In this document: positions 20,735 to 46,150 of the stretch, one piece after another
Layout: the number at the start of each line of letters is the position of its first letter
Position numbering within the stretch: position 1 is the stretch's first letter
Source of the DNA: a virus
Strand: one strand, 5' to 3'
IMG/VR virus record: IMGVR_UViG_3300044612_003613
Location: 1 to 56,912 of that record
DNA: 56,912 bases
Translations under genes and position numbers: made by a program
Notes under the pieces: generated by a model
Databases searched by the model: none
What the model was told of the DNA's origin: nothing
Seen by the model: the letters and a program-made list of their open reading frames with translations, nothing else

Positions 20735-20861
20735 TGCCGCCCGTCCTTTCTCCTGAATGCCAGGGCGCTTCATCGCCAATGCTGGATGCAATGGACGGTA
20801 GGCTTGCGGCGACCATCGGCGATGCGGGGCCATGGCCAGCAGGTCAGGCGAGAGATCATCA

Positions 20862-21728
20862 ATGGTCGGCGCCATGCTGGCCGATTTCGGCCGGTATCCG
20901 ATCCCAAACAAGACCGAGCAGCTGCTCAGGGGCCAGCAGGTTCGAGCGTGGCTGGATTGGCCTGGCGGCCCTGACGCGGCGCCGGGGGCAATACGGCGAG
21001 CAGGCAAGCGGGCACGAGACCGGTTGGTGACAGGAAACATGCGGATGTGCGTCACCGTCGCCAAAAAGTATTGCCGGATGGGCCTCCCCCTTGAGGATCT
21101 GATCCAGGAGGGGGCAATCGGCTTGCAGCGCGGGGTCGAGATGTTCGATCCCACCAAGGGTTATACCCTGGGCACTTATGCCTATTGGTGGGTGCGACAG
21201 GCGATGTATCGCGCCCTTGCGGAAACTGCAGATACGATTCGCATTCCGACCAATGTGCTGGAGGTGTTGTTCAAGGTCGAGCGCCATATCGCATCCAGTC
21301 CAAATCGGCTTACGGATGCTGAGTTGCTGGAGATTTCAGGGCTAAAAAGTATGGAACAGTTGGAACGCATTCGGATAGGGGCTCGCGCCAAAAAATGCGG
21401 CAGCACATCAGTCCTGTTGCCTGATGAGAAGCACTGCCTAGAAGAGGTCTTGCCATGCCCCAAAAGCCGCGTCGATATTGAGGAAGATCGGCTGGAAAAT
21501 GCTCTTCAGCTTGAGAGGCTGGCGGCAATGCTCCCGTTTCTATCAGATGAAGAAACCGAAATAATTGAGCTGTTGTATCTAAATGAATTGCCTAAAACAG
21601 AAATCGCCAGGATGCTTGATACAACTGCTGATCGGGTTTCCAACATCGTCAACAAGGCAATGGGCAAGCTGCGTCGCCTGGCCATGATCGACGATGGGGA
21701 GCAAGTCATTCAGGAATCATTATTTTAG
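20862..21728 (+). CDS. Phage-encoded sigma-70-family RNA polymerase sigma factor
   Basis: 288 residues from ATG 20862 (ATG 20874 is an alternative). Region 2 is clear: '[20 protein letters not shown]', '[19 protein letters not shown]', then the -10 recognition helix '[20 protein letters not shown]'. Region 3 follows. Region 4 carries the -35 helix-turn-helix '[20 protein letters not shown]'. It resembles cyanobacterial group 2/3 sigma factors. It is transcribed divergently from the portal/head operon and probably redirects host RNA polymerase to phage promoters. It ends in a 4-base convergent overlap with the HNH gene. Confidence 0.85.
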
Positions 21729-32787: not shown

Positions 32788-32889
32788 AGCGTTATTGCCA
32801 GTTGCTCATTCTGCCGGGTTGGGGCTGACGCCACACCACTCGGAGGGCCTGCAGGTGGTGCTCAAATCTGCAGGGCCTGCAGGCGGACC

Positions 32890-33588
32890 TCAGCCTCGCC
32901 GGTCTCGCCGGTTGAGGTGCTCCTCGATCACCAGAGCCAGCCGCTCCGATAGCTCGTCCAGCTCCGGCAGGCTCGCGGCCAGCTGGACCAGCAGCGACCC
33001 AAAGCGGTCAAAGGCCTCCTGATCGTCGAAAGCGATCGTGATCTGCAGGCCTGACTTTGCCGCCGGCTCCTCGGGAGGGAGGGGCTCCACCTCATCAGCC
33101 TGCAGCAGGGCCGAGAACTCGTCTTCGGTGAACCAGGGGCTGATGTCGAGCATCTGGTCGGACTCCATCAGCTCGGCCAGCATCCGCCCGGAAAACTCCG
33201 AAGTGTCGCTGCTGCGGTTGTCCGCCAGGGCAAGGCCTGTTTTTGCGGTTGGGCTCAGATCGGTCCGCTGCACCGCCACCAGGGTGTTGCCGTCAGTCGG
33301 AATCACAAGCACCCGGTTGATGCCGTGGATGGCCGCGGCCTCCACCGTGCCGTTGCCACAAAGCACCACCCCGTTCTCATCGACCACGATCGAGCGGGCT
33401 GCACCGAAATCGGAGATTGACCGGGACAGCATCCCGTGGGAGCGCTCCGTGCGCCGCCGGGCGTTCTTTGGGTCTGGCGTCAGCTCGGCCAGGGTGACAA
33501 CTCGCGCTCTGGGACTGGTTTCTGCGTCCTCCACCGGCCTAGCAATGGGAGCCAGCTGACCAGCGGCGGCAGGGCGTTTGGCGGCCAT
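32890..33588 (-). CDS. ParB/sulfiredoxin-fold domain protein
   Basis: 232 residues from ATG 33588 (MAAKRPAAAGQ). Residues about 30-125 show the ParB-like nuclease fold: 'ELTPDPKNARRRTERSHGML', 'SISDFGAARSIVVDENG', 'VLCGNGTVEAA'. A C-terminal region (about 165-232) has the 'ITIAFDDQEAFDRFGSLL' strand-helix pattern. Phage ParB-like proteins of this size commonly accompany DNA methyltransferase or packaging modules and may be nucleases. The neighbouring gene (30532-32787) carries the zeta-type domain. Confidence 0.75.
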   Translation of the reverse strand: MAAKRPAAAGQLAPIARPVEDAETSPRARVVTLAELTPDPKNARRRTERSHGMLSRSISDFGAARSIVVDENGVVLCGNGTVEAAAIHGINRVLVIPTDGNTLVAVQRTDLSPTAKTGLALADNRSSDTSEFSGRMLAELMESDQMLDISPWFTEDEFSALLQADEVEPLPPEEPAAKSGLQITIAFDDQEAFDRFGSLLVQLAASLPELDELSERLALVIEEHLNRRDRRG

Positions 33589-33689
33589 TTTGAAAAGCTT
33601 CTCTGTGTAATCTGTTAACCAGTTTACCCAGTTGGGTCCAGGCGCAGACTGGTGTTTGACGCCGTACAAGGAAGGATCCTTATTGGCCG

Positions 33690-34556
33690 ATGCGACGAGT
33701 ACCGTTTGGTTTTAGCTACAGCAACGGACGGATACAGCGCTGCGAATCCAACTGGCGCCATGCAAGGCTGTTGGTTGAATTGGCAATTCAGTCCGAACTC
33801 ACGTATTCAGCAATTACAAGGGCTTTGCCGATTGCATTTCCTTGGATACCGACACGAAAAGGGTTTAGCAGATGGATTACGAACCCAACCCTTCGTGGTG
33901 GCAACGGGCATCGAGTGCATCGTTCCCTTCAATGGGCCACGGTTGAATGGGGCCATGGCCCGTGCTTGATCTCGCAATCAGAATGGCGCATCCTCAAGCG
34001 GTTGCTTTACATCCGCGGACATCAGCCACGCCGAGATGAATGCCGCCTTTTCTCTCGGCTGATTGTGTGCAGCGGCTGCTCAAGCCAGTTCCGCTGGGAC
34101 AGCCGGGCGCGCAACTACAAATGCAGCCGCGTCGGCTGCCCGTGCCATGGGGCCCAGCTGGAAGAGGAGTCGTTGCGCACGGCAACGATCGCAGCGCTGA
34201 CCCGTCGAGCGGCCCCTCGCATGGCACAGCTGGCCAAGGAATGGGCTGTGCAGCAAACCGACAGCGACTGCTACAAGTTGCAGGTGTGCCGAGATCAGCT
34301 AGCCCGGCTAGAGGCCCTGCAAACCGAGGGGGTTGTTGCCCTGGGGGTGGCGATCTGCCAACTGCGTGATCAGATTGTTGCCTTGACGCCCAGTGCCTCC
34401 AGCGATGCGTCGACGGTTTACGACTGCCTGCTTCGGGATCCGGCCACTTTGGAAGCTTGCAGCGACGATGCCCTACGCAAGATTCTGCTGGAATTCTCCG
34501 TCGAAATCCATTATGTGGGCGAAGGGTTCCGCGTCAGCATCGGGCTCCTCGATTAA
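33690..34556 (+). CDS. XisF-like large serine recombinase lacking the catalytic N-terminal domain
   Basis: 288 residues. It begins directly in the recombinase domain: 'PFGFSYSNGRI', 'LLVELAIQSELTYSAITRAL', 'GFSRWITNPTLRGG'. A zinc-ribbon segment follows (SRLIVCSGCSSQF, then CSRVGCPCHG) and a C-terminal helical region, as in cyanobacterial XisF-type recombinases. The resolvase domain with the catalytic Ser (about 140 residues) is missing; an in-frame stop lies just upstream and the ParB gene occupies the adjacent DNA. It is either a decayed remnant or a domesticated DNA-binding protein. Confidence 0.7.
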   Translation: MRRVPFGFSYSNGRIQRCESNWRHARLLVELAIQSELTYSAITRALPIAFPWIPTRKGFSRWITNPTLRGGNGHRVHRSLQWATVEWGHGPCLISQSEWRILKRLLYIRGHQPRRDECRLFSRLIVCSGCSSQFRWDSRARNYKCSRVGCPCHGAQLEEESLRTATIAALTRRAAPRMAQLAKEWAVQQTDSDCYKLQVCRDQLARLEALQTEGVVALGVAICQLRDQIVALTPSASSDASTVYDCLLRDPATLEACSDDALRKILLEFSVEIHYVGEGFRVSIGLLD

Positions 34557-34667
34557 TTGGCGGTGCAGCTGCTGCTGAGATGCCAGGAACAATGCCTGCC
34601 CTGCCGTCAGGATCGGTGGGATGATGGGTTCGGGCCGTTTGTAGGGCATCCAATTCAGTAGATCCAC
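34473..34667 (-). CDS. Possible 64-residue ORF after the endolysin
   Basis: ATG at 34667 overlaps the end of the endolysin gene by 13 bases. The sequence (MDLLNWMPYKRPEPIIPPIL...) is Pro-rich at first, then helical and acidic. The last 84 bases are antisense to the recombinase remnant. It could be an accessory lysis gene, but coding status is doubtful. Confidence 0.3.
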   Translation of the reverse strand: MDLLNWMPYKRPEPIIPPILTAGQALFLASQQQLHRQLIEEPDADAEPFAHIMDFDGEFQQNLA

Positions 34668-35401
34668 TCAGCCGCCGGCCGCCGGCCACCGCCGGGTGCA
34701 AATCCACCACCGTTGCGGGTGTCGAAGTGGAGAAAGCCCCGATCTCGGCCATCGCCCAGGCCGCCAGTCCAGCGAACGCAAGCCCATTGGAAGAATTCCT
34801 CCAAGCTGCGGCCGATGGGGTAGATGTCAAATGCGTTGCCGGGGATGTGGTGACTGTTCCGAACCCCTCCAACTTGAGCGTTGATCGGCTCAGGTCGGTA
34901 GAAACTGGTCACGCCCAGCGGTGTCCCCCAGGCAAGCCTGAGGGGCTCAAAGCCTTTGCGTGCAGTGTGGATGATGCGGGGGATGTCCCCGCTGGAAGGT
35001 GATGGCCGCCGACGGGGATCAAACTGCAGCACCTCCCCAACGCTGAGATGATTGGAAACCGCTGCGCCCATGTCGCGCCAATCAATCAGGCCTCTCACGA
35101 TGGGGCTGGTGGGAGGCTCTGAGAACCCTCTCCAGTGGGGCTGCCAGATCACCCAGGTGCCGCCGCCTTCGGCAAGATCCACCTCCACATGGGCCGTGCG
35201 GGGGATTTCCCGTACGGCCACCAAACCGTGAATGGCTCCTGCCTTCACTGGCTTCCTTTGGTCTGAGCTGAGGTCACTCGCTGGGACTGGCTTCTGCTTG
35301 AGCCAGGAATCCTGTAAAGCAGTGATGGTGAGGATGGTTTTGACCGCTTCAGGCTTCTTGTCGGCAATTCGTCCAGTCATCGTGATGCCAAGGCTGTCCA
35401 T
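34655..35401 (-). CDS. Peptidase M15-family endolysin
   Basis: 248 residues. The C-terminal half has the M15A zinc-binding signature: 'RNSHHIPGNAFDIYP' (about residues 181-195, His and Asp ligands) and 'FLHFDTR' (about 223-229, third ligand). The N-terminal half (about 20-100) is a beta-rich wall-binding or SH3-like domain (EIPRTAHVEVDLAEGG, WVIWQPHW). M15A enzymes cleave peptidoglycan cross-links. There is no signal peptide, so release should need a holin. It is the last main gene of the leftward early/middle run. Confidence 0.8.
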   Translation of the reverse strand: MDSLGITMTGRIADKKPEAVKTILTITALQDSWLKQKPVPASDLSSDQRKPVKAGAIHGLVAVREIPRTAHVEVDLAEGGGTWVIWQPHWRGFSEPPTSPIVRGLIDWRDMGAAVSNHLSVGEVLQFDPRRRPSPSSGDIPRIIHTARKGFEPLRLAWGTPLGVTSFYRPEPINAQVGGVRNSHHIPGNAFDIYPIGRSLEEFFQWACVRWTGGLGDGRDRGFLHFDTRNGGGFAPGGGRRPAAEWIY

Positions 35402-35413
35402 CCATTCTGCCGA

Positions 35414-36025
35414 TTACTGCAAAGCGAATCGCTCGACAACGATGGTGTCGCCTACATGGTTGAACTCTTCCACAAAAACGATGGCATCGAGGCTGTCTCG
35501 GTAAACAATCGCAGTGGGTTTGAACACCCTGGCAGGGTCGTCGTAATGAAAGGTGCGGCGGCACCAACCATCAGCCGTGAAACGGGGGACAGCTGTAGCG
35601 ATCAGTGCTTTATCACGGCACCATTGATTTTCAGTACAAGGCCTTTCCAAGCGGAGCAACAAGGTTCCCACTGGGAATCGCAGCGTGACAGATTTTGCAG
35701 GGGTTTCTCGGTTTGGGTTGATGATGAGGCCCCCTGTTGGTAAGGTTAACTTTCTGTGATTTGATCCTGTTGCATTGGGGTTGTCAGACAATTTAACTGT
35801 ATAGAGTATAAAAGGCAAACATTCTCCTGGTAAGTCGACGGCAACAGAGCGAATGTTATAGGCTTCTTCTGCCAACACATCTTTAACACTGGCTTTTGCT
35901 GGCTTACAGAATGTCCCAGGCGGCAGAAATTTGCGTGGCTGACCAGTCTGCAGCTCCACAATCGCACTGGAATCCAGGGTTCTGCCCCACAGAGAGAGCC
36001 AAAAGCCTTGCGTTTCAATAGCCAT
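35414..36025 (-). CDS. Hypothetical 203-residue protein
   Basis: ATG at 36025 overlaps the preceding stop (TGATG). The sequence is beta-rich (LWGRTLDSSAIVELQTG, SVTLRFPVGTLLLRLE, TAIVYRDSLDAIVFVEEF) without a signal peptide or catalytic motif. It sits between the nuclease and the endolysin. Local AT content is higher than in the neighbouring genes. I do not recognise it. Confidence 0.5.
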   Translation of the reverse strand: MAIETQGFWLSLWGRTLDSSAIVELQTGQPRKFLPPGTFCKPAKASVKDVLAEEAYNIRSVAVDLPGECLPFILYTVKLSDNPNATGSNHRKLTLPTGGLIINPNRETPAKSVTLRFPVGTLLLRLERPCTENQWCRDKALIATAVPRFTADGWCRRTFHYDDPARVFKPTAIVYRDSLDAIVFVEEFNHVGDTIVVERFALQ

Positions 36026-36525
36026 CAGCATTGCATCATCAGGTTTTCAACAGATTGCTTTATGGCGATCTCACGCATTGCTGCTTTTGATGCGGTTCGA
36101 ACGACAATAAATGATGCCAGTTTCGGCAGCCATATCTTCTCGCCATTGCGAGTCAACATCTTGTCAGTTAGGCAGATCAGCGCCCAACCGCTGACTTGAG
36201 CTGTAAGGCTTTTGATGGCGTCGCGCTCAATGCCTGGCCCAGTCGAATGGCCGCCAACGACAAAAGTGCCGCCTTGAACCTCCACAACTACACACGCTTG
36301 AGGCCAAGCAAAATCAGCCTTGAACGGAACCCGTCTGGTAACAAGGCCCAGTTGTTTTTTTTCTTCGGCCCATGCCCGCCAGCCAGGAATCACATATTCA
36401 CGTTCAAAAGGCAAATGAGGGTAATCGCGCAGCCATTTAGCGCTAAAAATATTCTCCAAGCGACTTCGTTTCTTGGTTGATACATTTGCTGATAAGTTTG
36501 TTTTGGGCCTTTTGCCTGTGCTCAT
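36025..36525 (-). CDS. PD-(D/E)XK-type nuclease (Vsr/DUF559-like)
   Basis: 166 residues from ATG 36525, in an ATGA overlap with the upstream gene. Residues about 58-80 show 'VPFKADFAWPQACVVVEVQG', the D...E-x-[QK] core of PD-(D/E)XK nucleases, followed by 'GGHSTGPGIERDAIKSL' and 'SGWALICLT', a typical Vsr/DUF559 arrangement. It lies beside SSB- and ERF-like recombination genes and may act as a recombination or Holliday-junction nuclease. Confidence 0.7.
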   Translation of the reverse strand: MSTGKRPKTNLSANVSTKKRSRLENIFSAKWLRDYPHLPFEREYVIPGWRAWAEEKKQLGLVTRRVPFKADFAWPQACVVVEVQGGTFVVGGHSTGPGIERDAIKSLTAQVSGWALICLTDKMLTRNGEKIWLPKLASFIVVRTASKAAMREIAIKQSVENLMMQC

Positions 36526-37130
36526 CCCAACAACCCATCGAGCATGTCCGCGACCTGGGAGCTGCCACCGTGGCGTTCGCGTAGTTCCTTGGCCAGCTCT
36601 GCGGCAACTGCAGCGCTCATTTGTCTGCAGACAGCACAATACCCATCAGTCTTTAAGGCTATGGCTTCACAAATGCCACTGCCCTTACACGCAGCGGCCG
36701 CCAATCGGTTGGCTAAAGAGAGTGGCGCTTGCGGCAACTCACGAGTTGTTTGCTCGGTTATTTGTGGTTCAAGCGGTTCAATTGGATCAAAAACATTAAG
36801 CTCCCCCTGTGATGGCATCAAATAGACAAAATCATAATTTCCAAAAGAGGGTGGCATGCCTGGATAGGGCTGCCATCGCTGGAGTTGCTTTTGCAATACC
36901 ATCTGTTCTAAAACAAGGCACAACATGTCTTTACCATCGCCGTCTGTTAATCGCTCCGCATAGGAAGCCAGCTCTGTCCTGAGCTGCGCTTCAGTAATGA
37001 CAAAGTGTCTAAGCAGGATCTCACCAATCTTGGTTTTGATCCATCTGACTTGATTGTCTTGATTTACTTTTTTGCACAACAAGGGGAACACTTGTTCCTC
37101 TGTGGCATGGCCTTGTGTTGCATGATTCAT
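36522..37130 (-). CDS. Hypothetical recombination-region protein with C-terminal Cys cluster
   Basis: 202 residues, with ATGA overlaps at both ends (SSB-like upstream, nuclease downstream). The middle is helical (EEQVFPLLCKKVNQDNQVRW, then 'GKDMLCLVLEQMVLQKQ'). The C-terminal quarter has four Cys (CKGSGIC and CAVC) that could bind zinc. The tight coupling suggests it works with the SSB-like protein and the nuclease. No family recognised. Confidence 0.5.
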   Translation of the reverse strand: MNHATQGHATEEQVFPLLCKKVNQDNQVRWIKTKIGEILLRHFVITEAQLRTELASYAERLTDGDGKDMLCLVLEQMVLQKQLQRWQPYPGMPPSFGNYDFVYLMPSQGELNVFDPIEPLEPQITEQTTRELPQAPLSLANRLAAAACKGSGICEAIALKTDGYCAVCRQMSAAVAAELAKELRERHGGSSQVADMLDGLLG

Positions 37131-37516
37131 GCGAGTGACCCTCCAGGCCGCTTAGCGCTAGTGAGATATTGTTCAATTTGGCGTCCCACGCTGGGTTTTG
37201 CCTCATCTTGATGGACAATTGACAGGCGATCTTTAAAATCTTCTAGCAAATGCACAGATGTTGCACATAGGACCAGTGTCCTATAGGTTACTTTTGTGGC
37301 TGGGTTGGGCCAGTGCATAGATTTCATAGAGCCTGTAATGGCCACCAACGATTCCTTTTTGATGTTTGCCATCAGTTTTTGGTGCCTCTTGACGGAAACC
37401 TTGAACCAGATTGGCCTTGGATCTTGATTGTCGAAGGAAGCAAGCTCCATTCTCGTAATATCTCCGTCCATTTCCGGTTCGCGAGTGACCTTGCCAATGA
37501 CTTGAATTGTGTTCAT
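37127..37516 (-). CDS. SSB-like single-stranded DNA-binding protein
   Basis: 129 residues. The N-terminal roughly 95 residues fit an OB-fold: 'NTIQVIGKVTREPEM', 'RMELASFDNQDPRPIWFKVS', 'LVAITGSMKSMHW', 'LVLCATSVHLL'. The C-terminal tail is short and lacks the acidic tip of cellular SSB. It probably covers single-stranded DNA for the ERF annealing protein encoded upstream on the same strand. Confidence 0.75.
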   Translation of the reverse strand: MNTIQVIGKVTREPEMDGDITRMELASFDNQDPRPIWFKVSVKRHQKLMANIKKESLVAITGSMKSMHWPNPATKVTYRTLVLCATSVHLLEDFKDRLSIVHQDEAKPSVGRQIEQYLTSAKRPGGSLA

Positions 37517-37536
37517 GGGAGAAGATGAAATAGGAA

Positions 37537-38196
37537 TCAGGCTTTGTTGACCAAATCGTGAGCAGATCGGTCGTGCTCGATGGCCTTATCAGGGTCAGAG
37601 GTGCGCCAATCAGGCCACGTGCGGCCTTCGTTCTTGATTTGCTTGGCGACCAGGGCTTCCACGATCTGCTCGGGACTGGCGCCAGTTCTATTGGCCCCGT
37701 CAAAACCCAAGATGATTACGTCGATCCATTCGGAAAGGGGACCATCCTCGGCTTCGATCTCAACCAGCTCTTTGCGGATATGGTCGCAGATCCCATTGAC
37801 TCGACGGTCGGGCCCAAATGTCTGAAGGCTGAAGATGCGGTTCCGGGTCAGAAAAGCCAGCAAGTCAAAACCTTCCGTGGGGTCAAAAAGAAAGCTGGCG
37901 TCAAGTTCAACAGCCGGAAGATTAAGCTGATTAGCGCCGAGTAGCTCAAGCGTCCGACGTGCGCTTGGTTTCCAATCGGGAAGATAAGCGACGATATTGC
38001 ATCCAGCCATTGCGCGCAGACTGTCTGCAGCAAGGCTCTCATCGTTCTCCATGTCATCGTGCTCGATTTCGGTTGCGCTAACTACTACGTAGCCCTTGGA
38101 CCGCAGTGCTGCCGCATAGGCGGCGAAAGCGGGGCGGTTGAGATCTGGTAATCCCAGCATGGGGCCGGTCAAGAAAACAAGTTTTCGTTCGTTCAT
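37537..38196 (-). CDS. DUF4406-DUF550 fusion (nucleotide metabolism)
   Basis: 219 residues. Residues about 5-95 match DUF4406, a deoxyribosyltransferase-like fold: 'VFLTGPMLGLPDLNRPAF' and 'LPDWKPSARRTLELLGA'. Residues about 125-219 match the DUF550/MazG-like dNTP pyrophosphohydrolase family: 'FGPDRRVNGICDHIRKELVE' and 'SEWIDVIILGFDGA', supplying the E and D metal ligands. The fusion suggests removal or remodelling of deoxynucleotides in the host pool. It lies just before the SSB-like gene. Confidence 0.75.
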   Translation of the reverse strand: MNERKLVFLTGPMLGLPDLNRPAFAAYAAALRSKGYVVVSATEIEHDDMENDESLAADSLRAMAGCNIVAYLPDWKPSARRTLELLGANQLNLPAVELDASFLFDPTEGFDLLAFLTRNRIFSLQTFGPDRRVNGICDHIRKELVEIEAEDGPLSEWIDVIILGFDGANRTGASPEQIVEALVAKQIKNEGRTWPDWRTSDPDKAIEHDRSAHDLVNKA

Positions 38197-38235
38197 GGCG
38201 GGAGGATGAGTTTTTGGATTAGTTGTAAGTTTGCT

Positions 38236-38721
38236 TCAGGAATTTTTAGATTTAGTCAAAGCTGCTTTTAGCTTACTGTTCTCCTTCTTGACATTTTCAA
38301 TGGCTTCTTGAAGTTCTTCTATGCGAACCTGCACTTTCTTGTACGGCATGAGGCTTACGATGTGGGCCTGGGCCCAGGCAAGGCAAGCTATGGGCAGGGT
38401 TTCCAGGCTCAAGCTTTTTTCTTGCAACAGAAGCATGGCTTCTGTGTGTTCCAACAAAGTCGCCGTTTCATCTTCATCCCAAGTAAGGCTTCGGCATTTC
38501 GTGTCAATCTCGCTCCATTCGCCATACATACCGGACATGCCGGCTGACCATTCCTCAGGCCGGTGCAAGCGAACCAGCGTGCCATTGGCACACAGGCCTA
38601 AGGTGCCACATCGAGCAATCAAACTCAATGGCGCTAGATTGCTCTGTTTTGGGGGGATGAGATAACCGGCGTCCTCATGAAAGAAGACATCAGGCTCAGC
38701 TGTTCGGAAATTTCGTGACAT
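38236..38721 (-). CDS. Hypothetical 161-residue protein with C-terminal coiled coil
   Basis: The N-terminal part is beta-rich with a Cys pair (IARCGTLGLCANG). The middle is acidic (TWDEDETATLLEHTEAM). The last 40 residues form a coiled coil (VRIEELQEAIENVKKENSKL). It starts 25 bases inside the 3' end of the 67-residue gene upstream. No function is recognised. Confidence 0.5.
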   Translation of the reverse strand: MSRNFRTAEPDVFFHEDAGYLIPPKQSNLAPLSLIARCGTLGLCANGTLVRLHRPEEWSAGMSGMYGEWSEIDTKCRSLTWDEDETATLLEHTEAMLLLQEKSLSLETLPIACLAWAQAHIVSLMPYKKVQVRIEELQEAIENVKKENSKLKAALTKSKNS

Positions 38722-38899
38722 GGTCCTTAGATGCTTTGGTTGGAGGATAAATCAGATGGACTGACAACTGGTTGCGTGCCATCGCTTGAAATGTCTCGCG
38801 CCATTGAGGATCATGGGTTGAGAAACTCAAACAACGCCATTGAGAATTGACTCGCCAGCGCAATAGCAAAAAGGATGGCTTGATGGCAAGGGTCATCAT
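38696..38899 (-). CDS. 67-residue basic protein coupled to ERF
   Basis: Starts in an ATGA overlap with the ERF gene (38896-38899). It is a short, Arg/Trp-rich sequence (SFLLLRWRVNSQWRCLSFST, then 'PQWRETFQAMARNQLS'). The base composition is similar to its neighbours. Its coupling to the annealing protein suggests a recombination accessory, but this is unproven. Confidence 0.45.
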   Translation of the reverse strand: MMTLAIKPSFLLLRWRVNSQWRCLSFSTHDPQWRETFQAMARNQLSVHLIYPPTKASKDHVTKFPNS

Positions 38900-39798
38900 G
38901 CGGGCACATAGCCGGCCGTTGCTGTGGTTGGAATCGGTGCTTCCGCTTGCCCAGGCCCCGCCCCTACGGCAGCAGGTTTGGAAGTTGGGATGCGCTTTAT
39001 GTTCGCTTCAGGCAATGGCGGTGGTTTTTCTCCCAGTCTGGTGGAGGAGCCCGAACTCGCACCCACAGTTCGTATTGATCGGCCGCGGCCATTTGCCTGG
39101 CCCTCTGGCTGGCGCAGATTGCCATCATCATCGGTGTCGCTTGGCATGATGCCTAAGACCGAAAGGAGTCCTAGTCGCCTTGCCGAAGTGTTAGCCACTG
39201 ACCACACTTGCATAGGACTAAGTAATTTATTTTCCCTCGTCAAAAGTGGCACGTCTGAGTAAATAAAGCCACCGCCCTTATGTAACAAATAAGTTCTAAT
39301 GACACTATAATCGGAAAGAACAACTTCTCGATGAAAATGCGCTAGCCCAAATTCTCCTGCTGTCCGTGCCAGCGAGGAAATTTCTCCTGGTGTCGCATAA
39401 GAATAATTTACATCTTTCCCCCCTCCTCCTCCTTCATTGTGCTCTTTGGTTTTGAAACTGGCCCGGGCTGATTTCTCAACCTCAGGGGCGCCGTGCTGCC
39501 ACTGCGCCAAGGCCTCAAACAGCTGGATTAGCTGCTCAACTGAAGGCCTGTAACCCATCACCACGTCAACAGCCGCGGCCTGCTGTTGAGTTTGTAATGC
39601 TGCCTGATGAGAAGCGAGGTCAGCAGCAATCAGGTCTTGTTTTTCTTGTAGTCCTTTGAACCCTTCCTGGGCAGATAAGGCCCAGTCGCCTAATTTTGCG
39701 AGCCTTTTTTCAAGAACTTGTAAGCGAAGGTTTTCCGGTTGATGAGCCGGTTTTTCATCCGTGAGCGTGGGCTCGGTGCCCTGTTGGGGAACATCCAC
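38896..39798 (-). CDS. ERF-family single-strand annealing protein
   Basis: 300 residues. The N-terminus (about 25-75) is coiled-coil-like. The ERF core (about 95-220) has 'ARASFKTKEHN', 'YSYATPGEISSLARTAGEFG', 'VIRTYLLHKGGGFI', 'SVANTSARRLGLLSVLGI' and the D-D-D-G signature near 222. The C-terminal tail is Gly/Pro/Ser-rich. ERF proteins anneal complementary strands in phage recombination. It is the first gene of the leftward 39.8-34.6 kb run, 40 bases downstream of operator copy 4. Confidence 0.85.
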   Translation of the reverse strand: MDVPQQGTEPTLTDEKPAHQPENLRLQVLEKRLAKLGDWALSAQEGFKGLQEKQDLIAADLASHQAALQTQQQAAAVDVVMGYRPSVEQLIQLFEALAQWQHGAPEVEKSARASFKTKEHNEGGGGGKDVNYSYATPGEISSLARTAGEFGLAHFHREVVLSDYSVIRTYLLHKGGGFIYSDVPLLTRENKLLSPMQVWSVANTSARRLGLLSVLGIMPSDTDDDGNLRQPEGQANGRGRSIRTVGASSGSSTRLGEKPPPLPEANIKRIPTSKPAAVGAGPGQAEAPIPTTATAGYVPA

Positions 39799-39837
39799 AA
39801 ATCAGTATGGTGGGCTGGACAGCCAAAGGATAGCACC

Positions 39838-39855
39838 CATCCAAGATCCTGTATG
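39838..39855. promoter_or_regulatory. Operator palindrome copy 4
   Basis: CATCCAAGATCCTGTATG is identical to copy 1, and both are flanked by a c on each side. It lies between the ERF gene start (39798, minus) and the rightward gene starting at 39859. Confidence 0.75.
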
Positions 39856-39858
39856 CCG

Positions 39859-40113
39859 ATGCCCATTGCTTTGCCCGTGACGGTTCCAGCGCTGATTTTT
39901 GCGGTTACAGGTTCGGATCTGACATGTGAGACCAGCTCGGCAGAAGCTGCCGACAAGGTTTGGCGGGCTCGCTCGCAATGGTTGTTGCTCTGGCCTGTGG
40001 ACCGGCTGGTGTTGCGCTGGCGGTGCCCGGAGAGCAATGAGCAGGTGGAGCTGGCGTACGAACGTGGGAGCAGTGGGACCGCCGCGGCCCCGTCAGCCCT
40101 GCCCCTGGGTTGA
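39859..40113 (+). CDS. Hypothetical 84-residue protein divergent from ERF
   Basis: ATG at 39859 (another ATG at 39853 lies within the operator). The N-terminus is hydrophobic (ALPVTVPALIFAVTG); the rest contains 'WRARSQWLLLWPVDRLVLRW' and an acidic end. The 3' end overlaps the convergent gene by 21 bases. It might be a membrane-associated early protein. Coding support is moderate. Confidence 0.4.
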   Translation: MPIALPVTVPALIFAVTGSDLTCETSSAEAADKVWRARSQWLLLWPVDRLVLRWRCPESNEQVELAYERGSSGTAAAPSALPLG

Positions 40114-41010
40114 TGCCTGGGATCCCTCAATTGCGGGTGCAGCGGTTGCTGAGGCATCGCTGAGCTGCGGCCGATTGCGGCTGGCCAGGCGGACCAGGGC
40201 GATGGCTACGGCGGCCTCCTCGTCGCGCACCTGATCCGCTGACCAGGCACCAAGGCCAAGGGCGACCTCGCGAATGCGGGCCAGTCGCTCAGGGTTTGAT
40301 GTGGGGTAACAGGAGAGGAACTGGCTCCAGTCGTCGATCAGATCAAGTTTGCAGGCCTGAATGCCTTCACGAATTTTCTTGGCTACGGCTGCGCTAATGG
40401 ATCGAGCTTCCTGATCGTTCACCACCGGTTCAACGATTTCCGGGGACAAGTTGCCTAGATAAACGCTGAAAAATTCTTCGGCGCCGTAGAGGCCCTGTTC
40501 GTCGGTGATCGTTACAGCGCTGTTGATATGCCGAGCTAGCACCTCTGATTTGGGTGCTGGCAGTTTGCCGGTCTGGACGGCCTCAATGTATTTGTTGAGC
40601 AGCCCGTAGCTGTCAAAAATCACCGGCGATACCTGCTTGAGCAGTTGGCGTTGCAGGTTGTTGATCTGGGAGGCAAAAATCCTGCGCACGGTGGCGACCC
40701 GTTCCCAGTCTTCTGATTCCTGATTCAGTTTGGGGATGGTGGTGTTGCTGCCAATGCCATCCCTCTTGGCGCGCCAGACGTGGCCATTGGCAACGGCGAG
40801 GTCATCCTTGTCATAAGGGCCCTGCCCCATGCCGGGGATGCCGTTCGCCTCCAGGGCGACAACGGCGGCTTCGGCCAGGTCGGCCATGGTGGCATAGCTC
40901 CAGCCCGAGCGCGCCATCCAACTGCGAGTCAACGCGGCGAAGGTCTCTTGCCCGCGCGCAAAGCGCTGCAGTTCTGGCGGGATGGCTTTGGGCAATGACC
41001 GTGTCCGCAT
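40093..41010 (-). CDS. Hypothetical 305-residue protein next to the replication gene
   Basis: ATG at 41010 (MRTRSLPKAIPPELQRF...); an upstream ATG at 41073 is possible. The protein is predominantly helical, with 'SQINNLQRQLLKQVSPVIFD' and 'SISAAVAKKIREGIQACKLD'. The C-terminal region is Ala/Ser-rich. It shows no catalytic motif. It is divergent from the replication initiator (start 41243), with a hairpin in between. Its role is unknown; a regulatory or replication-accessory function is conceivable. Confidence 0.5.
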   Translation of the reverse strand: MRTRSLPKAIPPELQRFARGQETFAALTRSWMARSGWSYATMADLAEAAVVALEANGIPGMGQGPYDKDDLAVANGHVWRAKRDGIGSNTTIPKLNQESEDWERVATVRRIFASQINNLQRQLLKQVSPVIFDSYGLLNKYIEAVQTGKLPAPKSEVLARHINSAVTITDEQGLYGAEEFFSVYLGNLSPEIVEPVVNDQEARSISAAVAKKIREGIQACKLDLIDDWSQFLSCYPTSNPERLARIREVALGLGAWSADQVRDEEAAVAIALVRLASRNRPQLSDASATAAPAIEGSQASTQGQG

Positions 41011-41114
41011 GGAGAAGGGTGGCTCTTGCATTCTGCCCGATTCCCGCCCATCAGTTGTTCGGGACGCCAGCAAGCCCCTATCCTGTTTCGTGGATGGCCT
41101 ATGTCTGCATCCAC

Positions 41115-41146
41115 AAAGAAACCCCGGGGCCGAACCGGGGTTCTTT
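41115..41146. promoter_or_regulatory. Strong hairpin upstream of the replication gene
   Basis: AAAGAaACCCCGG-(7 nt)-CCGGGGTTCTTT forms a 12-bp stem with one bulge, with an A-rich left and T-rich right arm. It therefore looks like a bidirectional terminator or attenuator. It is placed in the divergent region 97 bases before the rep start and could attenuate rep transcription or isolate the two promoters. Confidence 0.5.
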
Positions 41147-41242
41147 GCAGAACGTGTGCTTACAGCCGCTCCCCAGCGATCCGTAAGGCGTCGAGCCCAG
41201 TCAGGCCAGGCCCTCTTCCATCACATTCAACATCTGAATTCT

Positions 41243-42400
41243 ATGCCATCACAGCCAGATCAGTCAACCCTTAAGCGTACTGATTTTGTCATTGTCCCTA
41301 AGCAGTTGCTGCGGAGTTGTAAAGACAGAAAAGGCACTTTGTTTGTTTACGCCTGGCTATGGGACTATGCGGGGACCAGAGACAATGCCTTCCCAGCGGT
41401 AGAAACTCAGGCTTTCGAGTGCCGCATGAAGGAAGAGGCGGTCCGGGAAGCGCGCCGGTGGCTTGAAGCGGAGGGCTGGATCGCCCGAGAGGATCGCCCG
41501 GGCTTCACCACCAATTTTCATGTGCGGACAGAGCCGGCTGCAACAGGCAGAACCTTAATGAACACTGGGGATACCCCGAAAAGGGGATCCCCCAAAAGGG
41601 GGACTCCCCCAAAAGGGGGATCCCCCAAAAGGGGGAGTACACCCCTCCCCCTTTCGGGGGAGTACACCCCTCCCCCGAAAGGGGGAGACGAACAAGAAGT
41701 ACTTAACAAGAAGAAAGAAGAACAGCCTTTAGAACCCCCTGTATCCCCCACTGCGCTGCGCGCACCGGGGGACGAACCCGCCAGCGTGGTCGAGGTGACG
41801 GAGGTGATCAGCCTTGATCCGGTTGAACCGACCCAGCCGGATGCTCCCGGTGACCCGGCACCAGTGGCCGCGGCCACCAGTCCAAACACCGCCGAACCCG
41901 TTGACGCAGCTGCAGCGGCAAGCAAACCCAAAGCCCAACCGAAGGCCGCGGCCACCGCCAAAAGCCGTTCGGCGCAGGCCTGCCCCTTGCCGGGCGATGC
42001 CCCGGAGTTGGAGCCCGATCTGCTGGATCTGCTGGCGACCTGGTGGCAGCGCCGCTGCCGCGTCCATCCCCGGGCCGATCGGCTGCAGTTGGGAACCCGG
42101 ACCTTGAACGCGATTCGCCTGGCGGTTGAGCACGGCGTGCTGGATGGCTACCTCGAACAGGCAGCCGAAGCCGGCTGGCAGTCCCTGGGCCACGAGGGAC
42201 ACCGCCGGGTGATTGCAGGCTTGGCGGAGGCAGCGACAACAAGCGATTTTCCGCTTGCCCTCGCTCATACAGAATTCAGGATGCTACGATCTGGCAAACC
42301 GAATTTTGACCCTTCCGACCTGCGCCAGCAGAAGCGGGATGCGATGAATCGGGCGATCAACCACGAGGTACGGAGGGCCCATGACGATCAGTTCCGATGA
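41243..42400 (+). CDS. Replication initiator-like protein (winged-helix N-terminus, internal origin repeats)
   Basis: 385 residues from ATG 41243. The N-terminal roughly 100 residues are a winged-helix DNA-binding domain: 'FVIVPKQLLRSCKDRKGTLFV', 'NAFPAVETQAFECRMKEEAV', 'ARRWLEAEGWI'. Residues about 111-148 are a low-complexity region of P-K-R-G and P-P-K-G-G units encoded by a hairpin array (41574-41685). An Ala/Pro linker and a C-terminal helical domain (about 255-385) follow. The layout parallels lambda O-type proteins, whose gene contains the origin. Confidence 0.75.
   Translation: MPSQPDQSTLKRTDFVIVPKQLLRSCKDRKGTLFVYAWLWDYAGTRDNAFPAVETQAFECRMKEEAVREARRWLEAEGWIAREDRPGFTTNFHVRTEPAATGRTLMNTGDTPKRGSPKRGTPPKGGSPKRGSTPLPLSGEYTPPPKGGDEQEVLNKKKEEQPLEPPVSPTALRAPGDEPASVVEVTEVISLDPVEPTQPDAPGDPAPVAAATSPNTAEPVDAAAAASKPKAQPKAAATAKSRSAQACPLPGDAPELEPDLLDLLATWWQRRCRVHPRADRLQLGTRTLNAIRLAVEHGVLDGYLEQAAEAGWQSLGHEGHRRVIAGLAEAATTSDFPLALAHTEFRMLRSGKPNFDPSDLRQQKRDAMNRAINHEVRRAHDDQFR
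41574..41685. repeat. Six-unit GC-rich hairpin array, candidate replication origin
   Basis: Inverted repeats CCCC(C)-[AAAA/GAAAA/TTTC/GAAA]-(G)GGGG occur at 41574-41586, 41589-41602, 41606-41619, 41622-41635, 41647-41660 and 41672-41685. Starts are spaced 15-17 bases for the first four and 25 bases for the last two. The array lies inside the replication gene, as lambda iterons lie in O. Confidence 0.6.
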
Positions 42401-42887
42401 CCTGTTTGACGTGCTGGAGAGCCTTTCGTTCCTCCAGCGCTTTGCCAAGAAGCTCACTGGCGATGATCACACGTTTGCATTTTTGACCTTTCCGCAGCAG
42501 GCGCGGCAAGAGCTGAACAAGGCTCATTTGATTTTTGCGGCACAACAGCTGTTGCTGGATCCTGAGCCCGTGCCAGACATGGCTTTGCACATGGCCTTGC
42601 TTCGGTATCTCTATCCCTGCCAGGGGATTTCCCCGTGTGTGGGTCGCGGGCTGCGGAGTGATCTGCCCCAGCGGCTGGCCGCTGCGGGGACTTTCACCCC
42701 TCTGCAGCCGGTGCCTGCGGAGCACCGGGCTTTTGCCCTGCCTCCTGCCCAGGCGATCCAGCCGCCACCGAAGACCAGGGCCGAGCGCATCGAGTCCCTG
42801 TTGGCCCTGGCCGCGGCTACTGGCGTGGTCAATCCGCTTGAGCCTGCAATGGCCGCGGCCCCCGAACCCCAGCTGGCTGAGGCGTGA
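42381..42887 (+). CDS. Hypothetical replication-region protein
   Basis: 168 residues, starting 20 bases inside the end of the initiator gene. The N-terminus is helical (SSDDLFDVLESLSFLQRFAK); the middle contains a 'YPCQGISPCVGRG' segment; the C-terminus is Pro/Ala-rich. In lambda-like modules this position is that of a helicase loader, but there is no AAA+ motif, so that role is not supported by the sequence. Function unknown. Confidence 0.5.
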   Translation: MTISSDDLFDVLESLSFLQRFAKKLTGDDHTFAFLTFPQQARQELNKAHLIFAAQQLLLDPEPVPDMALHMALLRYLYPCQGISPCVGRGLRSDLPQRLAAAGTFTPLQPVPAEHRAFALPPAQAIQPPPKTRAERIESLLALAAATGVVNPLEPAMAAAPEPQLAEA

Positions 42888-43282
42888 TGGAATCACCCAC
42901 GACCATGGATGATCTGGTCGCTTCAGTGGCCACAGTTGACATCTCCGCAGTCTCCGTTGGCGAAGGAGTGGTTACGCGCTCTCGGCTTGAGAGGGGCGTT
43001 ACGAACTGGGGCCAGCGAGCGGCTATGGGTGTTTTGGATGGTTACTGGACCCTGGAGCAGCTTGATCTATGCCATCAACCCGGCACCGGAGCCCAATGCT
43101 CGCGTTGTGCAGCCAATGCCTGGCGATCGCGCCAAGGGCTGCCCCCAATCGAGCATTGCAATTCCGCCCGCGAGTGGATTGCAGCGCACCCCGAGCAATG
43201 GGAAGCGCTGCTTCGAGCAAAGCTCCGCGATGAGATTGCGACACCCGATCTCCCCCCGGCAGTCGGTGAAGGTTTTGGTTAG
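42884..43282 (+). CDS. Hypothetical protein with Cys motif
   Basis: Up to 132 residues from ATG 42884 in an ATGA overlap; ATG 42905 is another choice. The central segment 'LCHQPGTGAQCSRCAANAW' has three Cys and one His (C-x-H-x8-C-x2-C) and may bind zinc. The C-terminal half is helical (SAREWIAAHPEQWEALLRAK). It is part of the 41.2-45.1 kb plus operon. No family recognised. Confidence 0.5.
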   Translation: MMESPTTMDDLVASVATVDISAVSVGEGVVTRSRLERGVTNWGQRAAMGVLDGYWTLEQLDLCHQPGTGAQCSRCAANAWRSRQGLPPIEHCNSAREWIAAHPEQWEALLRAKLRDEIATPDLPPAVGEGFG

Positions 43283-44764: not shown

Positions 44765-45064
44765 ATGGGCGATGCTGCAGCCGAGGCGATTAACAGGCGC
44801 CTCGACGAGATTGCAGCGCAGCTGGACAGGCTTTTGGCCAGTTTCCAGCTGCATGCCAGGCCGACCAGCCCCAAAAGCCTTTGGCTGCCACTGCCCGCGG
44901 CCGCCGGGGTTTTGCAGTTCTCCAGTGCCAAAGCGCTGCGTGGGGCCATTGACCGGGGAACCATCCCTCCCAAGTTCGTCAGGGATACCAATGAGGACAG
45001 CACCAAGCGGCGGCGGCTGCTGGTGGATGTGGAGGGCTATGCCTCACATCTGCGCCACAAGTGA
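44765..45064 (+). CDS. Excisionase-like DNA-binding protein (candidate recombination directionality factor)
   Basis: About 99 residues from ATG 44765 (ATG 44738 is an alternative). A coiled-coil-like N-terminus (INRRLDEIAAQLDRLLASF) is followed by a winged-helix of the MerR/excisionase kind: 'WLPLPAAAGVLQFSSAKALR', 'GAIDRGTIPPKFVRD', 'RRRLLVDVEGYASHLR'. It is convergent with, and overlaps by 21 bases, the integrase gene. Gene position and fold favour an Xis role, not shown directly. Confidence 0.6.
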   Translation: MGDAAAEAINRRLDEIAAQLDRLLASFQLHARPTSPKSLWLPLPAAAGVLQFSSAKALRGAIDRGTIPPKFVRDTNEDSTKRRRLLVDVEGYASHLRHK

Positions 45065-46150
45065 TGCCATTGAGTCATTGTCGAAATAACGCTGGTACAG
45101 CGTGGTGTGGACCATCAAGGAATGGCCCAGGCTCTTGGCTGCCAGCGATGGGCTGATCTGCGGGTTGGAGATGGCCCGCACGGCCCAGGCATGGCGAAGG
45201 TCGTACGGCTGAAACGGCACTTGGAACCGGCGAAAGGCCACCGCCAGCTGCGCCCCCACGGTTCGGCTGTCCCTTTCGAAATTGATTGCCGGCAGCCGTT
45301 GCTCATCGAGGTTCCATCGCTCGATCCAGGCCTTCGGCAGCGGCAGGCTCTTTCGAGCACCAGTTTTTCCCGCCCTGATCACCGCCAGACCATTGCGTTC
45401 GACAGAGGCCATCAGCAGGGCCTCGTGGGGGCGGGTGCCATAGGTGGCGCAGATGCCGGCGACCCACTGCCAATTGGCGGGCATTGCATCGATCGCATCG
45501 ATGATCACCTGGTCATCGGGCAAGCTGCGAGGCCGCGCCTTCGAGGGGCTGTAGCCCTTCCCGAGATCCCGCAGCTCTTGCACAGCCTCCATGCCCATTG
45601 CCAGGGCCTGCGCCACAGCCGTCGCTGCCAATGCCGCCTTGCGCCTTGCGCACCCACCAACAGGCTTGCTTGCCACCAGGGCTCGCAGAATGTTGAGCGT
45701 CACATCCTGCTGCTGCAGCAGTGGCCGCAGCGGCCCCCCGTAGGCAGTCGCCCAGCTCACCGCCGATTTCGGGCCACGCTGGCGCCGCTCATGCCACCAG
45801 ATCTCGGTTCGCCGAATCGCTTCATGCCCGCTGATGCTTTCCCGGGCAGCACAGTTGCTTGATCCGGCACCAGCCTGGGCCCAGCGGTCAAAAGGGAACG
45901 GCTGAAGGCCGCGGCGATGCAGCTCGATGTCCTGGCCCAGCTGCTCAGCCAGCTCCCGGGCTTGGTCAATCCCAGCGGGATAGGGAAAGGCGGTAACGAT
46001 CCGGCGTTGCTTCCAGGTGCCATCTGCCATTGGCAGGGTGGCCCGCAACCGCAGCCGGCCGCCTGACGGGGAAACCTCAATCGACACGCTGGCCCCAAGT
46101 GCACGGAGAGCCCGGTTGACGCGGGCGAGATACGGGTCCTTGGGTGGCAT
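45044..46150 (-). CDS. int: Tyrosine-family integrase
   Basis: 368 residues. The C-terminal catalytic domain carries R in YGTRPHEAL (about R240), the basic 'GKTGARKSLPLP' loop, H-x-x-R in 'YDLRHAWAVR' (R near 318), 'SLGHSLMVHTTLYQRYF' with the nucleophile Tyr near 352, and a short end. The N-terminal half has an arm-type/core-binding domain. Its start lies 130 bases from the tRNA-derived attachment core at 46280-46325, as expected for site-specific integration into a tRNA gene. Confidence 0.9.
   Translation of the reverse strand: MPPKDPYLARVNRALRALGASVSIEVSPSGGRLRLRATLPMADGTWKQRRIVTAFPYPAGIDQARELAEQLGQDIELHRRGLQPFPFDRWAQAGAGSSNCAARESISGHEAIRRTEIWWHERRQRGPKSAVSWATAYGGPLRPLLQQQDVTLNILRALVASKPVGGCARRKAALAATAVAQALAMGMEAVQELRDLGKGYSPSKARPRSLPDDQVIIDAIDAMPANWQWVAGICATYGTRPHEALLMASVERNGLAVIRAGKTGARKSLPLPKAWIERWNLDEQRLPAINFERDSRTVGAQLAVAFRRFQVPFQPYDLRHAWAVRAISNPQISPSLAAKSLGHSLMVHTTLYQRYFDNDSMASLVAQM

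Follow-up and report, generated by a model that had tools for sequence, protein, structure and literature searches.

We analysed a 56,912-nucleotide window of viral DNA (positions 1-56,912 of IMG/VR record IMGVR_UViG_3300044612_003613; all coordinates refer to this window) and focused on the open reading frame (ORF) at 33690-34556 on the plus strand, which begins with an ATG and encodes a 288-residue XisF-type serine recombinase without a catalytic domain. Our reading is that this protein is probably a phage integrase that was displaced from its job, lost its catalytic domain, and was kept as a non-catalytic, sequence-specific DNA-binding protein.

The protein matches large serine recombinases of the XisF type over their C-terminal two thirds. 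The NCBIfam XisF model NF041201 matches it over model positions 155-420 of 465 (2.2e-14, 53.3 bits), and the PHROG integrase family phrog_95 also matches (8.9e-7). Its score falls short of the XisF equivalog cut-off of 375 bits, as do the scores of six catalytic sister genes described below. Among Pfam models, the zinc ribbon PF13408 stays under the cut-off (E 0.12), and PF07508 (Recombinase) has no match anywhere in the window record. Because these Pfam domains are weak or unseen, the domain assignment rests on the XisF and PHROG matches, the alignment to catalytic relatives, and the predicted fold. Residues C127, C130, C145, and C150 are invariant in all 13 aligned sequences, and across the family alignment PF13408 matches seven of the eight members at E values up to 1, the best being 3.6e-7. 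By its cysteines and fold, the protein thus has the recombinase domain and four-cysteine zinc ribbon of large serine recombinases, whereas the N-terminal resolvase domain and catalytic serine of a catalytic serine integrase are missing. Having no resolvase domain, and hence no catalytic serine, it cannot recombine DNA alone. An earlier note on this DNA had described an XisF-type protein that begins at the recombinase domain and carries a zinc ribbon. The truncated start is borne out, and both domains hold by family match, alignment, and fold, although not by Pfam. Separately, positions 15-47 of phrog_35004, an 81-residue family of unknown function, match residues 15-47 of the protein (window 33732-33830; 0.0018); this family may contain other proteins that start at the same point.

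An upstream in-frame start was ruled out by a TGA at 33657, and no ATG, GTG, or TTG lies between this stop and the ATG at 33690. About 101 bp separate that ATG from the start of a parB-like gene on the opposite strand (33588). The stop and the divergent neighbor therefore leave no space for a resolvase domain, just as the earlier note had argued. The resolvase model PF00239 matched neither the window nor its four nearest records, also when the search was repeated at E 0.1, and a split gene with its resolvase domain elsewhere in these records was therefore rejected. The same model is present in six records with a catalytic gene and in none of the ten others searched, including the five records of the truncated lineage.

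More distant phages, found through their terminase, carry the intact counterpart. Six of the 14 records searched, near-identical fragments of the window's own lineage among them, hold an XisF-type gene, with open frames of 444-478 residues (the one in G034 is cut by the contig end) and 33-40% identity to the truncated protein. In profile scans of 17 loci, the catalytic Y-[VA]-R-V-S motif occurs in an open frame at 14, and the remaining three were those of the truncated lineage. With the addition of L104, the catalytic form is present in 15 phage records, which are not all independent since L097, L098, and L099 encode the same protein; partial or weak matches (L107, L108) were left out of the count. 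The 3' end of the catalytic gene is cut by a contig end in two of the 15 (L104 and G034). parB is the divergent neighbor in 13 (12 of the 14 loci, plus L104), and the contigs of the other two, G042 and G044, stop shortly upstream of the catalytic gene, before parB. The truncated protein aligns collinearly with these enzymes encoded at the same locus. The window gene is therefore an in-place orthologue, shortened at its 5' end, and only the window lineage is truncated among the records compared.

This lineage comprises the window and four viral contigs with near-identical copies of the gene (95-98% identity). Three of them (G001, G002, and G003) span the gene, while G004 stops at codon 208. A search for homologues of the same length, which the earlier note had suggested, recovers the same truncated frame in all four spanning records, window included, with a single difference in the 101 bp upstream. 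The copies in G002 and G003 are identical, so the lineage amounts to three distinct sequences.

In a tree of 13 sequences, the truncated lineage joins group B (G030, G032) with support 1.0. Groups B and C, and XisF itself, keep the catalytic domain, and truncation is therefore the derived state. The ten codons between the TGA and the ATG read RRTRKDPYWP, which aligns without gaps to RRRREAGYAG, the linker that immediately precedes the recombinase domain in the sister enzyme. No other ungapped position in the sister protein aligns as well, and about 0.005 of 5000 shuffles equal it; at the DNA level, 13 of 30 bases are identical, with 0.03-0.04 of shuffles as good. By this alignment, the new ATG falls within the old linker. 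Local alignments of the intergenic region to three sister records are unconvincing, as they were equalled by 61, 62, and 120 of 1000 shuffles and differed among the three. As a separate observation, the block at window 34655-42896, which runs from an endolysin-like gene up to the gene at 42357, has the opposite orientation to that in G030 and G032, one end adjoining the truncated recombinase; for this block, the gene order of G045 is like that of G030.

To assess selection, we took all differences among lineage members to postdate the shared truncation. The ratio of nonsynonymous to synonymous substitution rates (dN/dS) for the whole gene is 0.12, 0.19, and 0.20 in three distinct but non-independent pairs (Fisher p 5e-7, 2e-6, and 1e-6), and the gene is thus not simply decaying. 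This comparison, which the earlier note had proposed as a check, reveals purifying selection within the truncated lineage. With region boundaries set by hand, dN/dS is 0.03-0.08 for residues 1-119, 0 to 0.40 on few changes for residues 120-160, and 0.41-0.43 for residues 161-288. In the same phages, it is 0.085-0.11 for terminase, 0.11 for the tyrosine integrase (one pair), 0.17-0.25 for endolysin, 0.06 and 0.34 for parB, and 0.41 on seven changes for the gene at 36025. Within group B, values are 0.07-0.33 for the catalytic part, 0.03-0.14 for the recombinase domain, and 0.04-0.17 for the C-terminal part; a single pair from group C shows 0.05-0.10 throughout. Given these low values, only the truncated lineage, out of the few pairs compared, shows weak constraint in the C-terminal part. 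Of 97 positions invariant in a distant clade, the truncated protein keeps 55, against 61 and 62 in the two catalytic sister enzymes tested. Constraint on the recombinase domain and retention of the zinc cysteines both argue for DNA binding, and selection on the DNA-gripping half suggests that the protein now works as a DNA-binding protein. An overlapping antisense gene was rejected as the cause of the low dN/dS, the sense frame being lower in all three pairs; one antisense frame gives 0.26-0.34, and the longest antisense ORF within the gene has 77 residues.

A structure model built from 13 sequences has a mean predicted local distance difference test (pLDDT) score of 74 and a predicted template modeling (pTM) score of 0.55; one built from only three near-identical sequences was of no use (mean pLDDT 37). 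In the PDB, the 13-sequence model is best matched by 4KIS, the C-terminal domain of a Listeria integrase bound to an attP half-site (Foldseek 2.8e-10; structural alignment Z 12.7 over 244 residues, root-mean-square deviation 10.3), and serine integrases fill all of ranks 1 to 22. The alignment pairs model residues 1-287 with 4kis 153-454. The high deviation suggests that the modeled fold matches domain by domain and not in domain arrangement.

The protein shares its recombinase domain, four-cysteine zinc ribbon, and C-terminal helices with XisF (the fdxN element excision recombinase) and the phage serine integrases, but by alignment it lacks their resolvase domain, catalytic serine, and alpha-E helix. 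Its domain content is the same as that of the C-terminal domain of the Listeria A118/LI integrase (4KIS), whose structure is described in passages of PMC3783163. That fragment was made for crystallization and includes part of alpha-E, whereas here the gene is natural and DNA binding is predicted. According to passages of PMC3556126, the separated C-terminal domain of A118 integrase alone binds att sites. In the literature covered, mainly abstracts and passages with few subscription journals, we met no natural serine recombinase without a catalytic domain for which a function is described.

Beside the catalytic genes, inverted repeats mark what is presumably attP. We searched hand-chosen stretches between parB and the recombinase gene in ten of the 15 catalytic records, and nine have an inverted repeat with 13-base arms, a span of 42-52 bp, and 11-13 of 13 pairs; for these nine, at most 7 of 200 mononucleotide shuffles were as good. 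No such repeat was found in the stretch from G033 (61 of 200 shuffles as good). As stated in passages of PMC3783163, the contacts of an integrase dimer with attP are expected to cover 50 bp. In one related phage, contig G042 (70.8 kb) has its two ends, and G044 one of its ends, no more than a few bases from the repeat centre, and the two ends of G042 are adjacent in G043. An attP crossover point could produce such a pattern in assemblies. The repeats differ between groups B and C.

In the window, a surviving attP repeat was rejected as the binding site, as the intergenic region does not rise above shuffles. A scan of the whole window at the same spacing yielded 28 and 4 matches (11 and 12 of 13 pairs), compared with up to 27 and 4 in five block shuffles. 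The best of these matches lie in C/G-rich repeats at 41606-41690, part of an inverted-repeat cluster at 41582-41690 with CCCCCAAAAGGGGG-like and CCCCCGAAAGGGGG-like units, inside an ORF that matches replication-initiation families. Unusual intergenic conservation was also rejected: positions 33501-33850 are little changed in the lineage, but the gap at 32788-32889 beyond parB is likewise without differences, and the L002 alignment used for this purpose is poor outside the locus.

As the earlier note had stated, the phage encodes a tyrosine integrase, which is probably its working integrase. Pfam did not detect it; by eye, its product shows R, K, YxxRH, H, and Y motifs, which we take to be the catalytic pattern. 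The family that identifies it, phrog_1, matches five of 16 records, exactly the five of the truncated lineage (partially, at a contig end, in G003), and none of the six catalytic-serine records in that set. A swap of the serine for the tyrosine integrase is plausible. Nine further catalytic-serine records include two with a different, stronger tyrosine integrase match, open in G045 and with one TGA in G049. In G045, just before this gene (634-1530 of L126), lies a reverse-transcriptase fragment at 28-567 (RVT_1 9.8e-9, YCDD motif by eye), possibly a piece of a diversity-generating retroelement or an intron; the contig also holds the catalytic serine recombinase.

We propose that an ancestral temperate phage would have integrated by means of an XisF-type large serine integrase encoded next to parB, with attP between both genes. 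In the window lineage, where a tyrosine integrase is present, the gene start and the catalytic domain would have been deleted in place, and the remaining recombinase and zinc-ribbon part would be translated from a new ATG within the old linker. Selection would maintain this remainder for non-catalytic, sequence-specific DNA binding. It would most likely serve as a regulator or block a site, either close to genes of the phage itself or at an attachment-type site. We infer that the protein binds DNA with such a consequence, and that the loss of its catalytic domain is linked to the change of integrase. The earlier note's idea of a relict of an older integration system therefore stands as to origin, given the catalytic enzyme and attP-like repeat at the locus, but the decaying sequence that the note had named as a refuting result was not seen. 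Nothing favors the directionality or DNA-bridging role that it also raised over other DNA-binding roles.

A regulator or site-blocker is the simplest role, and it has a precedent in the tyrosine fold. According to PMC10516654, MrpR, the master repressor of the Bacillus prophage SPbeta, is a phage protein that has a recombinase fold but no longer functions as a recombinase and instead acts as a DNA-binding repressor; our protein differs in being of the serine type without a catalytic domain, and repression by it is only proposed. That a serine integrase has turned into a stand-alone DNA-binding regulator in a living lineage, as a natural counterpart of the laboratory C-terminal fragments and a serine parallel to MrpR, we regard as having slightly less than an even chance. 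Such a phage integrase would be caught between enzyme and DNA-binding protein, with its catalytic ancestor preserved at the same locus in relatives. The case makes testable what the DNA-binding half of an integrase does without chemistry, and whether new phage regulators arise from integrases that were replaced. A further caution is that a 'recombinase' annotation based on C-terminal domains may be given to a protein unable to recombine.

Several observations weigh against this proposal. Known integrases dimerize through the catalytic domain and the alpha-E helix (passages of PMC3783163), and by alignment the truncated protein has neither; it might bind single half-sites, which would fit the loss of the symmetric repeat. 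The window intergenic region has no attP-like repeat (146 and 172 of 200 shuffles as good), and half-site motifs of the sister phages are not enriched in the window (3 matches against 5.2 expected, and 2 against 3.7). The recombinase gene has also evolved about 1.8 times faster than its sister (branch 1.06 versus 0.58), with 30-37 unique changes versus 17-20 (chi-square 4.6, 3.6, 6.6, and 4.4 with four related outgroups), while unique changes in terminase and parB are even between the two. Together with the relaxed C-terminal third, this indicates weakened constraint. Two of the 15 catalytic-serine records also match a tyrosine integrase, one with the in-frame TGA, so the integrase swap is not a rule, and the presence of a tyrosine integrase does not alone make the serine enzyme dispensable. 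Absence of a tyrosine integrase is in any case weak evidence, because most records may be fragments. Finally, candidate repressors are also encoded elsewhere by this phage (window 5429-5728 and 16314-16571), and a consensus scan just upstream of the gene found no promoter-like site.

Two alternatives also assign the protein a function, and we consider both unlikely. It could be a dominant-negative blocker that occupies the att sites of catalytic relatives or prophages and disturbs integration or excision, a form of superinfection interference. Related phages with the catalytic enzyme do exist, the isolated A118 domain binds att sites, and selection is strongest on the DNA-binding domain; however, identity to the catalytic enzymes found is only about 31-40%, and this, with the differing attP-like repeats of groups B and C, makes shared specificity with the relatives seen here unlikely. 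No more probable is an accessory recombination factor, either an architectural or directionality protein for the tyrosine integrase or a partner of a host-supplied catalytic domain in trans. The tyrosine integrase match in five of five lineage records would suit the former, but its gene is about 10.5 kb away on the other strand; as to the latter, the phage records of the truncated lineage lack a resolvase domain, and the other 14 loci encode catalytic and DNA-binding parts in one frame.

Least probable, in our judgment, is a decaying pseudogene whose frame happens to have remained open after the deletion. It would account for the faster evolution, the relaxed C-terminal third, the missing promoter-like site, and the relic codons still visible upstream. 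Against it, synonymous changes since the truncation far exceed replacements (Fisher p at most 2e-6), and dN/dS, although slightly above that of terminase and tyrosine integrase, is within the range of endolysin and parB. The coordinates on which these comparisons draw are collected in the table.

Features of the truncated recombinase locus and the tyrosine integrase in the window
Feature	Position	Strand	Basis
parB-like gene, divergent neighbor, also in related phages	32890-33588	-	phrog_620 1e-22
In-frame TGA, blocks upstream start	33657-33659	+	sequence
Putative relic, untranslated, of the linker that joined the catalytic and recombinase domains	33660-33689	+	ten codons from TGA to ATG, alignment to sister
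XisF-type serine recombinase without catalytic domain, 288 residues	33690-34556	+	NF041201 2.2e-14; catalytic orthologues at same locus; dN/dS 0.12-0.20
Recombinase (DNA-binding) domain, residues 1-119	33690-34046	+	alignment to catalytic relatives; dN/dS 0.03-0.08; boundary set by hand
Zinc-ribbon domain, residues 120-160	34047-34169	+	invariant cysteines; PF13408 in family; boundary set by hand
Helical C-terminal region, residues 161-288, weaker constraint	34170-34553	+	model helices 159-187, 191-212, 219-232; dN/dS 0.41-0.43
Tyrosine integrase, probable working integrase	45047-46150	-	phrog_1 7.6e-8

Wider searches returned few relatives. The truncated protein has no match among annotated phages at E 0.01; at a limit of E 10, only two Staphylococcus phage records appear (E 4), and for the first 60 residues the matches listed include weak ones to Vibrio, Salmonella, and Roseobacter records (E 2 or worse). 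It has no match in plasmids at E 1, none in the defense-family search, and a chance-level match only in a PDB sequence search. Scans of genome contigs gave no relative. The XisF model matched none of 22 further viral records with a distant parB. For the catalytic sister, plasmids gave no match, and one Streptomyces phage matched weakly (4e-6). Elsewhere in the window, positions 20832-21728 encode a phage sigma-70-type factor (Sigma70_r2 4.8e-17), which is also present in related phages.
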